DNA of 64,000 nt from Prosthecodimorpha staleyi (GTDB taxonomy: Bacteria; Pseudomonadota; Alphaproteobacteria; Rhizobiales; Ancalomicrobiaceae). The DNA is taken from NCBI RefSeq assembly GCF_018729455.1, contig NZ_JAHHZF010000012.1, positions 1 to 64,000 of the forward strand. Reading direction: 5' to 3'. A program made the translations under genes and the position numbers. Of the stretch, positions 40,274-63,908 are shown in pieces. Position 1 is the first letter of the stretch; every line of letters begins with the position of its first letter. The notes below the pieces were generated by a model. That model was given only the letters and a program-made list of their open reading frames with translations, did not search any database and had not been told where the DNA came from.

Positions 40274-41107
40274 ATGACGGACGACGGCGACGACGATCGC
40301 AAACCCCAGGACGGCGCTACCGGTGCCGGACGCGCCACGCCCGGCCGTCGCCGCGGCGGCCGGGCGGCCGCGATGGAACGGGCGGCCCGGACCGTCTCTC
40401 CGGCCTGGCCGACGACAACCACCGACGCCCCCGCCGGGGCCCCCGGCCGGGACATGGCGGTCTCGGTCACGGCCGCTTGCAAACCCGGCCCAACCGCCCG
40501 ACCGGCCGTCGACCGGTCCGCTCGCACCCTGGTGATCGGCTGCGGGGCCGTCGTCCGCGAGGTGATGGCGGCGCTGCGGCTCGCCGGCCTCGACCATGTC
40601 GATGTCGTCGGCATCCCGGCCAAGCTGCACAACCGCCCCGAAAAGATCGCCGACGCCGTCCGCTGCCGAATCGCGAGCGCGCGCATCCGCGACGGCTATG
40701 GCCGCATCCTGGTCGCCTATGGCGATTGCGGCACCGGCGGCGAACTCGACCGGATGCTCGCAGCCGAGGGCGTCGAGCGAATCGCGGGCGATCATTGCTA
40801 CGCCTTCTTTGCCGGCATCGACGAATTCGCGGCCTTGCACGACGCCGATCCGGCGACCTTCTATCTGACCGACTATCTCGCCCGCCATTTCGACAGCCTG
40901 GTCTGGCGCGGGCTCGGTCTCGACCGGCATCCCGACCTGCTCTCCGCCTATTTCGGCAACTACACCCGGCTGATCTATCTGGCGCAGATGCCCGACGCGA
41001 ATTTGGAGGCGGATGCGCGCGCCGCCGCCCGGCGCCTGGGTCTCGCCTTCGAGATGCGGACGACCGGGCTCGGCGGCCTTGTCGACTGGATCGCCGGCGC
41101 CGCCTGA
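40274..41107 (+). CDS. DUF1638-domain protein
   Basis: A 277-residue protein. Residues 1-75 are low-complexity and rich in Gly, Ala and Arg, probably disordered. The DUF1638 core begins with TLVIGCGAVVREVMAAL and includes VGIPAKLHNRPEKI, the YGDCGTGGELDRML segment with a conserved cysteine, and HCYAFFAG. DUF1638 proteins lie next to corrinoid-dependent methyltransferase genes in many bacteria and have no proven function; cysteine and histidine residues suggest metal or cofactor binding. Here it follows the corrinoid-protein gene. The long N-terminal tail is unusual, so an internal start (near 40440) is possible. Confidence 0.8.
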   Translation: MTDDGDDDRKPQDGATGAGRATPGRRRGGRAAAMERAARTVSPAWPTTTTDAPAGAPGRDMAVSVTAACKPGPTARPAVDRSARTLVIGCGAVVREVMAALRLAGLDHVDVVGIPAKLHNRPEKIADAVRCRIASARIRDGYGRILVAYGDCGTGGELDRMLAAEGVERIAGDHCYAFFAGIDEFAALHDADPATFYLTDYLARHFDSLVWRGLGLDRHPDLLSAYFGNYTRLIYLAQMPDANLEADARAAARRLGLAFEMRTTGLGGLVDWIAGAA

Positions 41108-60501: not shown

Positions 60502-62802
60502 TCAGCGGCGCCGGATCGGCAGGGCGGCGAGCCTCTCTTGCAGGTCGAGACGGGGTTGCGCCTCCATCCAGTCGAACAGTTCGACATAGGTCGACCGGTG
60601 GCGGTCGGCCCAGTCGATCAGGCCTGGCAGTTCCCGGGCTTCGCGGGCGATCGGGATCGGCAGGCCGGAGGCTTCGATCAGGCCTTCGATCTTGTGCGTG
60701 TTGCCGGCCATGGCGACGAAGGGCAGCCGCGCGCGGCAGGCCGCATAGACGGCATGGTGCCGCCCGGTGACCAGCAGGGAGGCGGTGCGCAGGCTCGCGA
60801 TAAGCTCCGGCCAGCCGTATTCACCCATGTCGATATAGGGCTTGGCCTTCAGCAGGCCGCCGGTCATGCGCACGAAATTGCCGAACTGGCGCGAGTAGAA
60901 GTCGGTCACCACCGTGCCGCCGCCGAAATCCTCGCGGGCCGCGACCGGCGCCACCGGTGCCCAGAACGAGGCATCGAGGCGCAGCTCGGCTTGGATGCCG
61001 TGCCGGGCTTTCAGGTCGCGCTGACTGGCCCGCTCACGCACCGTGATAGCATCGAGATGGCGCAGGACATGGTCGAACAGGCGCCCGTTCCTCTGCCACA
61101 CGGTGTTGACCAGAAAGGCCGGCCGCCGGCGCGCCACCGCCTCGCCGAGCAGCAGCATCTTCTGGTGGAAGGAATGGACGCCGTGATGCATCGAGCCTTC
61201 GCCGTTGACCACGACGACATCGTAGTCCTCATGTGCCTCGACGACCCGCCCGACCGCCTCGAATTCCTGCCGGAAATAGGCGGTCACGGCATCGGAACCG
61301 GCATGGTAGCCGGTATGATCGCCGGCAAATCGGATGCGAAGACGATCGTCGCGCTCGGCACGCAACGCTACGATCGGCGGCGCCGGCAACCGGGTGCCCG
61401 TGATGGCTTCGAACAGCGTCCTTTCGCGCGACCAGGCATGGCGCCCGGATGGTGCCTTGGCGTCGAAATAGTGCGCGATGCGCCCGCCCTGTGTCTGGTC
61501 GGTGAAGGAGAAACCGTAGTGGTCGACACCGGGCGCACCGCCGCGCCGGTCCGCCGCCAGGGCGGCGAAGGTCAGCCCGGCACTCGGCGCCCGGCCGAGT
61601 TCGGCGACGAGGCGCGTCTGGATATCGGGCGGGAAGAACGCGACCTCGTGACCGCGGGCCTGAAGCGTCCCGATCGCCGACCACGACCGGCACAGGATCT
61701 CGCCATGCAGCCCCGTGACGACCACGCGCCGCGCGGCCGTCTCGCCGCCTCCGAACCACAACGGGCGGACATGGAGGGTGGTCTTGCGGCCGAAATCCGG
61801 CGCGAATTCCGGCTCCACCGAGAAGCGGTTGAAGCGGACCACCTGGACGTGGCGGTCGATCGCGGCGCCCTGCCCGCTGCCGCGACCGGCCGGCGCATTG
61901 CCGACGATCGCCCAGTCCTGCGCGGGGTCGGTTAGATCGGCGAGGAGACGTGCCTGGGCTGCACGGACCTGGATGCGGCGCTCGAGAGTGGCCTCGGCCG
62001 CATGACGGAGGTCCGCATCGCCGCCGGGAAGCGACAGCCAGGCGCCGGCCAAGGCGGGGCTTTCAGGCACCAGGGCACGGATGGCGGTGCCGAGCCGGCG
62101 GGTGTAGGCGACGAGACGGTCGTGTTCGCCGCCCGCCTCCAGGATGGCCGCGAGCCTTAGGCTCGGCGGCCCCGCCGCCGCGTCGGGCCGTGCGGCTAGC
62201 CGGATCGCCGCCTGAACGGCCGCGTCGTCGACGCCATACCGGCTCAGATGCAGTTCCAGAGCGGCATGGCCGTTCGTCGGTTCGAGCGCCGGATCCGCCA
62301 GGATGTCGGCCGCCCGCGCCAGCACGTCCGGCTCGATCAGCGATCGGCGCGCGCAAACGGCGAGCAGCAGGTCAGGGACCGCGCCGGCAAGGCCGGGCAG
62401 TTCGGCGAGGCCGCGGACCCGGTCGAGCACGGCGTCGCCATCGGCATGGACGATCCATTCCTGAGCGATCGTCGTCAGTAGCGCCACCGCGGTCCCGTCG
62501 CGGTCATGGCCGGCCGCTGCCACCGCATCCCGCACCACCGCGAAAGCATCGCCATGCGCCCCGGCGCGGGTCAGGAGTTGGGCCAGGGTCGCGAGCCGGC
62601 GCCCGGACGGGACCGGCTCCTGGCGACGGCGGAGGCGGGCCGCATAGAGGAAGCTGCGGCTCGGATCGCGGCCAAGTGCGGCGAACAGCCGGTCGGCAGC
62701 AGAGAGCAGCGCAGGCGAACCCGAAAACCGCGGCAGGCGCAGGGCCAGATAGGCGGCCAGGGGCTCGAGCGCGGAACGGCGAGCCAAGGCGAGCGTGGTC
62801 AC
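60502..62802 (-). CDS. GT29-like (sialyltransferase-like) domain fused to a polysaccharide pyruvyl-transferase domain
   Basis: A 766-residue protein in three parts. Residues 1-290 are helical and repetitive, resembling tetratricopeptide-like arrays. Residues about 296-450 hold the sialylmotifs of glycosyltransferase family 29: L (WAIVGNAPAGRGSGQGAAID, then VVRFN and F-x-x-DFG), S (APSAGLTFAAL...HYGF) and VS (HYF). Residues about 495-740 resemble the PS_pyruv_trans domain: the segment VVVNGEGSMHHG, FHQKMLLLGEAVA, AITVRERASQRDLKARHG and SLLVTGRHHAVYAACRARLPFVAM. The start is GTG overlapping the stop of the upstream gene. No signal peptide or membrane helix is seen. GT29 proteins otherwise transfer sialic acid in animals; here the donor sugar is unknown. 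It may add and pyruvylate a sugar on a surface polysaccharide (inference). Confidence 0.8.
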   Translation of the reverse strand: MTTLALARRSALEPLAAYLALRLPRFSGSPALLSAADRLFAALGRDPSRSFLYAARLRRRQEPVPSGRRLATLAQLLTRAGAHGDAFAVVRDAVAAAGHDRDGTAVALLTTIAQEWIVHADGDAVLDRVRGLAELPGLAGAVPDLLLAVCARRSLIEPDVLARAADILADPALEPTNGHAALELHLSRYGVDDAAVQAAIRLAARPDAAAGPPSLRLAAILEAGGEHDRLVAYTRRLGTAIRALVPESPALAGAWLSLPGGDADLRHAAEATLERRIQVRAAQARLLADLTDPAQDWAIVGNAPAGRGSGQGAAIDRHVQVVRFNRFSVEPEFAPDFGRKTTLHVRPLWFGGGETAARRVVVTGLHGEILCRSWSAIGTLQARGHEVAFFPPDIQTRLVAELGRAPSAGLTFAALAADRRGGAPGVDHYGFSFTDQTQGGRIAHYFDAKAPSGRHAWSRERTLFEAITGTRLPAPPIVALRAERDDRLRIRFAGDHTGYHAGSDAVTAYFRQEFEAVGRVVEAHEDYDVVVVNGEGSMHHGVHSFHQKMLLLGEAVARRRPAFLVNTVWQRNGRLFDHVLRHLDAITVRERASQRDLKARHGIQAELRLDASFWAPVAPVAAREDFGGGTVVTDFYSRQFGNFVRMTGGLLKAKPYIDMGEYGWPELIASLRTASLLVTGRHHAVYAACRARLPFVAMAGNTHKIEGLIEASGLPIPIAREARELPGLIDWADRHRSTYVELFDWMEAQPRLDLQERLAALPIRRR

Positions 62803-63908
62803 GATTGCAGGATCCGTTGGAAGAGTTCGGCCTCGGCCGTCCAATTGTGCGAGCTGGCGGCGGGAGCGACCGACCGCGGGCGTTCGAAATAGTGCCGGGA
62901 GCCGCCCTGCGGCTGGTCGGTCAGGGCGAAGCCATAGACCGATACGTTGGCGTCCTGGAACGCACCGCGCAGGCGCCGCAGCCAATAGAGGAAGGTCAAT
63001 CCGGCGCTCGGCGCATATTGCAGTTCGGCCGCGAGGTCGACATAGAGCGGCGTCGGCACGAAGACCGGATTGCCGCCGGAGCGCACGACATCGAGGATGT
63101 CCCAAGGCGCGAAGCCATGGTGCCGGCGGTCGGGACCGCTGAACACGACCGACGAGAACTTGCTGCCCGGTCGCGCCCAGACGCCGGTATGGCCGGCCGC
63201 GCGCACCCAGATGTCGGCCCGACCGCCATAGTCGATGCGGAAGGCGGGGTCGGCCGAATAGTTGTTGAAGCGCACGACGAGGTCGTGGCGGTCGATCGCC
63301 GCGCCTTGCCCGCGGCCGATCTCGACCGGCGAATTGCCAACGACGGCGATCGACACCGACCGATCGGCCAGACGCTCCAGAAATCCCGCCTCGTGTTCCT
63401 GGCTGCGCTGCAGCGCTTCGCCGGCCGACGCGCCGACCCCGGACGGGTCGAGCCCGAAGAGGTGCATCTTCTCGATCACCGCGAGGCTGGACATCGCCAC
63501 CGCCGCGACCTTGTTGCGCCGATAGAGCGGTGCCGTCACCTCGACCGCCTTGCCCCAGTTGAAGGCCTCGCCATAGGCCGCGGCCTGGATCGCGCTCAGA
63601 CGGCCGGCGAAACTGCGTGCGAGCGCCGGGACGCGCGCCTGCAGACCTTCAAGGGCACGCAGGGTCTGCGGCGTCGGCCCGCGAAAATCGAACAGCATCT
63701 TGGCCAGCCGGGTGGCGGCCGGAAGGGCCGGAATGCGGTTGTCGGCAGCTGCCCGAAGCGCCGCGATCCGATCGTCGACGCGGGCTAGCGGGGCATCCGG
63801 CGGGTCCCGGAAGATGTTCAGCACCGGCGCGAACCAGTTCGGTCCGAAGGACGGCAGTGGCGCATCGCGACCTGACACCGGCGCGGGAGCTGCATCGAGT
63901 CTGGCCAT
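62799..63908 (-). CDS. GT29-like glycosyltransferase (sialyltransferase-like)
   Basis: A 369-residue protein. Residues 1-180 are helical. The L motif is at 187-230 (IAVVGNSPVEIGRGQGAAID, RHDLVVRFN, then a D-x-G in RIDYGGRAD), the S motif at about 299-326 (APSAGLTFLYWL...VSVYGF) and the VS motif HYFE at 339-342. All are in the order and spacing of animal sialyltransferases, though no membrane anchor is present. It may transfer a nonulosonic acid or another sugar to a surface glycan. The 3' end overlaps the fused gene (GTGA), so both act in one pathway. The ATG has GGAG seven bases upstream. Confidence 0.8.
   Translation of the reverse strand: MARLDAAPAPVSGRDAPLPSFGPNWFAPVLNIFRDPPDAPLARVDDRIAALRAAADNRIPALPAATRLAKMLFDFRGPTPQTLRALEGLQARVPALARSFAGRLSAIQAAAYGEAFNWGKAVEVTAPLYRRNKVAAVAMSSLAVIEKMHLFGLDPSGVGASAGEALQRSQEHEAGFLERLADRSVSIAVVGNSPVEIGRGQGAAIDRHDLVVRFNNYSADPAFRIDYGGRADIWVRAAGHTGVWARPGSKFSSVVFSGPDRRHHGFAPWDILDVVRSGGNPVFVPTPLYVDLAAELQYAPSAGLTFLYWLRRLRGAFQDANVSVYGFALTDQPQGGSRHYFERPRSVAPAASSHNWTAEAELFQRILQS

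Follow-up and report, generated by a model that had tools for sequence, protein, structure and literature searches.

Two overlapping genes on the minus strand of a stretch of DNA from the aquatic bacterium Prosthecodimorpha staleyi (assembly GCF_018729455.1, contig NZ_JAHHZF010000012.1, positions 1 to 64,000) encode proteins with the sialylmotifs of GT29, the glycosyltransferase family of the mammalian sialyltransferases. This whole 64,000-nt stretch, referred to here as the window, is the start of one contig of an alphaproteobacterial genome of 6.19 Mb that is 99.96% complete. The upstream gene encodes P0002. The downstream gene encodes P0001, in which the GT29 domain is followed by a domain of the pyruvyl-transferase family PF04230. 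The features of the pair are as follows:

62799..63908, minus strand: P0002, GT29 protein of 369 aa (PF00777 match, model, invariant residues), helical from the N-terminus to about residue 181 and with its GT29 catalytic domain at about residues 184-366
60502..62802, minus strand: P0001, 766 aa, GT29 domain and PF04230 domain on one chain (both Pfam cut-offs passed)
62799..62802, minus strand: GTGA overlap, the GTG of P0001 on the TGA of P0002, a geometry of translational coupling (sequence, P. hirschii orthologue)
61948..62802, minus strand: N-terminal region of P0001, residues 1-285, all-helical (helix to 291 in the model), a tetratricopeptide repeat (TPR)-like solenoid at low to moderate confidence
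61363..61947, minus strand: GT29 domain of P0001, residues 286-480 (VGNAP ... RFNR ... PSAG ... YGF ... HYF ... H455-x4-E460)
60505..61350, minus strand: PF04230 domain of P0001, residues 485-766 (PF04230 over cut-off, alignment, Foldseek)

The P0001 gene starts with GTG at 62802-62800, and the stop codon of P0002 is the TGA at 62801-62799. A mechanically called frame of 867 aa from 63105 was rejected as the P0001 gene; the true start is GTG 62802, as it is in the orthologue of a close relative by sequence, Prosthecomicrobium hirschii 16 (now Prosthecodimorpha hirschii, Ancalomicrobiaceae). This orthologue is 89% identical and has the same architecture, gene order, GTG start and overlap. The possibility of an assembly artefact was rejected because P. 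hirschii has the identical gene order and fusion. The tandem overlap had already been described, with the right coordinates, in an earlier note made from the letters of the window. A comparison with P. hirschii gave ratios of nonsynonymous to synonymous substitution rates (dN/dS) of 0.12 for P0002 and, within P0001, of 0.25 (helical part), 0.16 (GT29) and 0.11 (PF04230), and this computation shows that the pair is under purifying selection.

By computation, P0002 and P0001 belong to GT29 and have its GT-A-like fold, like the mammalian sialyltransferases. PF00777 was matched by P0002 with 41.5 bits (E 1.4e-10) and by P0001 with 37 bits (E 3.2e-9), the curated cut-off being 23. The Pfam model covers motif L only in the two proteins; motifs S, III and VS are nonetheless present, and the elements N, R-x-N, P-S-x-G, YGF and H-x4-E of motifs L, S, III and VS are conserved in both domains. 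The residues of motifs L and S that bind cytidine monophosphate (CMP) are fully retained. The two GT29 genes with complete motifs L, S and VS that the earlier note had read from the sequence are therefore borne out. The same note had named a lack of the motif residues in most close relatives as evidence that would speak against its reading; seven residues (G191, N192, R213, N215, G303, H354 and E359 in P0002 numbering) are invariant across 29 bacterial GT29 rows. As a separate observation, the proteins at L069, L070, L078:7585-8337 and L086 read VGPA where motif L otherwise has VGN, and so lack the conserved Asn; they possibly use a different donor or are inactive.

A profile of 33 bacterial GT29 rows, run against the PDB, matched pig ST3Gal1 (E 6e-20) with motifs L to VS aligned, as well as ST6GalNAc2, ST8SiaIII and ST6Gal1, and no further PDB entries. 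The AlphaFold model of P0002 has a mean predicted local distance difference test (pLDDT) of 85.7, and the 30 PDB entries that it matches best are without exception mammalian GT29 sialyltransferases, with a probability of 1.00 and E down to 6e-6, at template-modelling (TM) scores that are modest (0.30-0.49 by target length). The P0001 model has a pLDDT of 79.4 and a predicted TM score (pTM) of 0.56; since this pTM is low, the individual folds can be used and the arrangement of the domains cannot be read. In this structural comparison, which the earlier note had in mind, P0001 was matched to ST3Gal1 and also to the pyruvyltransferases Pvg1p and WbbZ. The helical region that the note had placed ahead of the GT29 domain of the larger protein is all helix in the model, at lower confidence. 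Foldseek paired the helical and GT-B parts of P0001 with OGT/SPINDLY, and other bacterial GT29 proteins have TPR matches at the corresponding position. The mammalian enzymes ST3Gal1, ST6GalNAc2, ST8SiaIII and ST6Gal1 thus share the fold and the motif residues, but they use CMP-N-acetylneuraminic acid (CMP-Neu5Ac) as the donor, are type II membrane proteins and have a disulphide between motifs L and S. The cysteines of this disulphide are absent from the window proteins and replaced in all three GT29 paralogues of the genome, and neither P0002 nor P0001 shows an animal-type membrane anchor, the models having a helical region in its place.

In a tree of 37 bacterial GT29 domains, P0002 groups with the third paralogue of its own genome (on contig C14), and the P0001 domain with proteins from genome G835 and from Sphingobium. 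A recent tandem duplication was rejected, because the two GT29 domains of the window fall in different clades. In the set as a whole, some GT29 genes (L063-L068, L073, L080, L081 and L084) show little outside the catalytic core, mostly in open frames of about 185-230 aa, and several of these are paired with PF04230.

The C-terminal part of P0001 matches PF04230 with 40.3 bits (E 4.7e-10; curated cut-off 25.3). Its residues R589, R681, H683 and K704 align with R148, R306, H308 and K328 of CsaB, the residues that contact phosphoenolpyruvate (PEP) in CsaB/Pvg1p (PMC10435577), so that all four are kept. The fused pyruvyl-transferase-like domain noticed earlier is thereby confirmed. Foldseek matched the model to Pvg1p (5ax7, TM 0.50) and to the Klebsiella pneumoniae pyruvyltransferase WbbZ (6x1l, TM 0.59), both by target length. 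CsaB, Pvg1p and WbbZ have the same PF04230 fold and the same PEP residues (R, R-x-H, K); they differ in having no GT29 fusion, and their overall identity to the P0001 domain is low. The nearest relatives of the domain are stand-alone genes that adjoin GT29, in G835 (47%) and G1082 (41%). Judged by its residues and its model, the domain would be a PEP-dependent ketal-pyruvyl transferase.

The association of GT29 with PF04230 is not limited to the window. It escaped the earlier note, as it is visible only from other genomes. The sample consisted of 33 GT29 genes in 25 GT29-bearing genomes, nearness was defined as within 2.5 kb, and three same-genus genomes were counted as one lineage. It was found that 16 of the 33 GT29 genes (12 genomes) lie near a PF04230 gene, and that 15 of 42 PF04230 sites have GT29 within this distance, where random placement would give 0.09. 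Surface-sugar genes cluster in general, and possession of the pair was the criterion by which the genomes were selected; the only fair, if partial, control is therefore another glycan family, PF05159, of which 1 of 37 sites in the same genomes is near PF04230. A chance neighbourhood was rejected on both the random placement and this control. The paired genes are on one strand in every case, in both gene orders, and at L078:4967-8337 they form a one-strand array PF04230-GT29-PF04230-GT29. GT29 genes with a PF04230 partner occur at many places in the tree, which needs some 10 label changes; well-supported branches force at least 6 of these, and a single inheritance of the pairing was therefore rejected.

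Further pairs were found in Sphingobium fontiphilum, on a Pseudosulfitobacter plasmid (with an ATGA overlap) and in the actinobacterium Luteimicrobium, PF04230 being just under the cut-off in the last two. At the Luteimicrobium xylanilyticum locus (L022:5494-8906), GT29 and a GT4-type domain stand on one frame, followed by a PF04230-like gene; this genome has NeuB, and its GT29 probably has a different donor. GT29 had no match in phages, and in plasmids four records only, which were retrieved by every GT29 query. The genome of P. staleyi itself has a second pair on contig C14 (L005:9272-12003), where the third GT29 gene is followed by a stand-alone PF04230 gene. KpsC/KpsS-type genes and a poly-export gene are found at a distance of 8.4 kb from this pair, which is syntenic in P. 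hirschii (8.2 kb). Computation thus shows that GT29 and PF04230 genes are recurrent partners, which speaks for a functional coupling; given this recurrence, the window fusion is one case of a general pairing, and its extreme form. The specific and recurrent pairing suggests that the PF04230 substrate contains the sugar that GT29 adds.

The donor of the GT29 domains was approached through the sugars that the cell can activate. NeuB (PF03102) was found nowhere in the 99.96%-complete genome, nor in either of the sampled same-genus genomes. PF02348 has three matches in the genome. One is KdsB (354.7 bits against 281 for NF003948), which makes the CMP-activated form of 3-deoxy-D-manno-oct-2-ulosonic acid (Kdo); the other two were rejected as CMP-sugar synthetases, one being GlmU-like by sequence and the other like a molybdenum-cofactor cytidylyltransferase. 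With no NeuB, and with KdsB as the sole CMP-sugar synthetase, a nonulosonic acid is neither made nor CMP-activated by any recognised enzyme, and CMP-Kdo is the natural donor. The earlier note had rightly left the donor open, but the sialic-acid-like glycan that it proposed does not fit this genome. Kdo would then be the donor here, and sialic acid is unlikely. Among 29 GT29-bearing genomes, NeuB is missing in 19, and every one of the 29 has a KdsB match (above the curated cut-off in 18; the Luteimicrobium match is weak and CMP-synthetase-like).

Other GT29 proteins point in the same direction, as does the nearness of the C14 pair of P. staleyi to KpsC/S-type genes. Two Rhizobiales proteins (L079:5422-8124 and L082:998-3281) have GT29 fused to PF05159, the KpsC/KpsS family of capsule Kdo transferases. 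A dual GT29-GT107 protein of this architecture has been described from E. coli K6, for which mass spectrometry led to the inference of a Kdo homopolymer (PMC13171606). Like P0001, it joins a bacterial GT29 to a further glycan enzyme; it differs in that its partner is a GT107 Kdo transferase, whereas that of P0001 is PF04230, and neither P0001 nor P0002 matches PF05159. An E. coli kps capsule locus with GT29 (L028:182-9503, L029:3241-16475) occurs in 7 of 5,426 complete genomes, one copy being on a plasmid. It holds kdsB (in the kpsU position), KpsC/S-type genes and an ABC exporter, its apparent type-specific genes are an acyltransferase, GT29 and GT2 only, and it is probably a Kdo-containing K type. 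In plants, the GT29 protein RCKT1/MGP2 is a putative CMP-Kdo transferase, proposed to be inverting and to give an alpha-Kdo product; it differs from the window pair as a Golgi enzyme of rhamnogalacturonan-II synthesis without a pyruvyl domain (PMC11288761).

It is proposed, with a probability of about 0.5, that the pair links an alpha-Kdo transferase with a ketal-pyruvyl transferase, and that it adds and caps an acidic sugar on a surface glycan. P0002 and P0001 would be cytoplasmic, as are CMP-Kdo and PEP. The GT29 domains, acting with inversion, would transfer Kdo from CMP-Kdo in alpha linkage to a lipid-linked or growing glycan. The PF04230 domain would take pyruvate from PEP and form a cyclic ketal with it; the simplest site would be the 7,8-diol of the Kdo just attached, or else a diol on a neighbouring sugar. 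The fusion and the translational overlap would hold both steps together. Of this scheme, the use of Kdo, the alpha linkage, the transfer of pyruvate and the 7,8 position of the ketal are each presumed. There is a precedent for the product in the exopolysaccharide of Cobetia marina L6, which contains ribose and alpha-Kdo pyruvylated at O-7,8 (PMC6801904, PMC5852497), the type of product expected of the window pair. Cobetia marina is a gammaproteobacterium, and the likeness is one of product.

Several observations weigh against this proposal. No close relative of the GT29 pair has shown activity, and PF04230 is missing from the neighbourhood of roughly half of the GT29 genes sampled. Around the pair, the window contains no recognisable glycan locus, the neighbours being an Rrf2 regulator, a flavin adenine dinucleotide (FAD) oxidoreductase and ATP-binding cassette (ABC) uptake genes; as the pair stands apart from other glycan genes here, the neighbours give no guide to the acceptor. 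Pyruvate could also go to another sugar. The same two activities may be present with pyruvate placed elsewhere on the glycan than on the Kdo, such as at the 4,6 or 3,4 position of a hexose, so that the fusion reflects only the assembly of one glycan. Known pyruvyltransferases mostly act on hexoses (PMC6801904), WbbZ caps a galactose terminus and thereby halts chain growth (PMC10629545), and the C14 region that holds the GT29-PF04230 pair also contains a UDP-galactopyranose mutase gene. This version is rather unlikely, given the specific recurrence of the pairing described above. It is improbable that the PF04230 domain transfers no pyruvate and serves as a scaffold or catalyses another transferase reaction in a GT-B-like fold. 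The GT29-linked PF04230 proteins are divergent (the P0001 domain scores 21.7 with TIGR03609, the CsaB model, against a cut-off of 213), and three of them (L018, L025 and L086) have lost the R of R-x-H; P0001 itself keeps all four PEP-contacting residues, and its PF04230 part has the lowest dN/dS of the three.

As to the GT29 step, sialyltransferases are the best-known members of GT29, and the family stands beside NeuB/NeuA-type genes in the genomes G856 and G435 and beside a cytidylyltransferase gene in Paracoccus, which also counts against Kdo as a general donor and indicates that the donor differs across the family. For the window pair, the use of a CMP-nonulosonic acid (sialic, legionaminic or pseudaminic acid) is strongly disfavoured by the absence of NeuB and of any CMP-sugar synthetase besides KdsB from its genome, and by the lack of NeuB in the sampled same-genus genomes; there is very little chance that it is correct. 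Nor is a donor other than a CMP-ulosonic acid, such as a UDP-hexose, probable. A plant GT29 bears the name GALT29A, which implies a galactosyltransferase (PMC11288761), but the CMP-binding residues of motifs L and S are fully kept in the pair, and GT29 is found in fusions with a CMP-Kdo-using family. Elsewhere in the window, ARAGORN reports a 93-base tRNA-Asp at 40358-40450 on the minus strand; it overlaps a plus-strand open frame and is doubtful.

Bacterial GT29 proteins form an already published family. Petit et al. (2018) list 23 sequences, 19 of them alphaproteobacterial, and the available portion of their paper describes features shared by the window proteins: sialylmotifs L, S, III and VS, the absence of the animal disulphide cysteines, and a mainly alphaproteobacterial distribution (PMC5811610). 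The suggestion in the earlier note that isolated annotations of bacterial GT29 might exist was therefore right as to their existence, and understated a family already on record. No PF04230 fusion, pairing or donor assignment was found in that portion of the paper, and no GT29-PF04230 fusion or pairing was found in the open-access literature, in agreement with the note's view of the fusion as the unusual part. What is known already thus comprises bacterial GT29, PF04230 enzymes and the GT29-GT107 fusion, and what is new is the pairing and fusion of GT29 with PF04230.

For a glycobiologist, the recurrent pairing together with the case for Kdo is the most surprising part. A wider claim, that GT29 and PF04230 constitute a widespread, undescribed two-step module, encoded by adjacent genes in many bacteria and by a fusion in P. 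staleyi, that installs pyruvylated alpha-Kdo on bacterial surface glycans, is put forward tentatively and as possible only. If it is true, pyruvylated alpha-Kdo would be a small, doubly acidic cap, like sialic acid in charge, and bacterial GT29 would gain a general role as Kdo transferases, supplying the inverting Kdo transferase that is missing from models of alpha-Kdo capsules. Bacterial GT29 proteins, akin to the sialylating enzymes of animal cells, have a function that is essentially unassigned, and the pairing and fusion with a pyruvyltransferase, the KpsC-family fusions and a genome able to make CMP-Kdo and no sialic acid make what they do testable in a concrete and inexpensive way. This bears on which enzyme makes the alpha-Kdo linkages in capsules, and on how the choice of donor has evolved in GT29.

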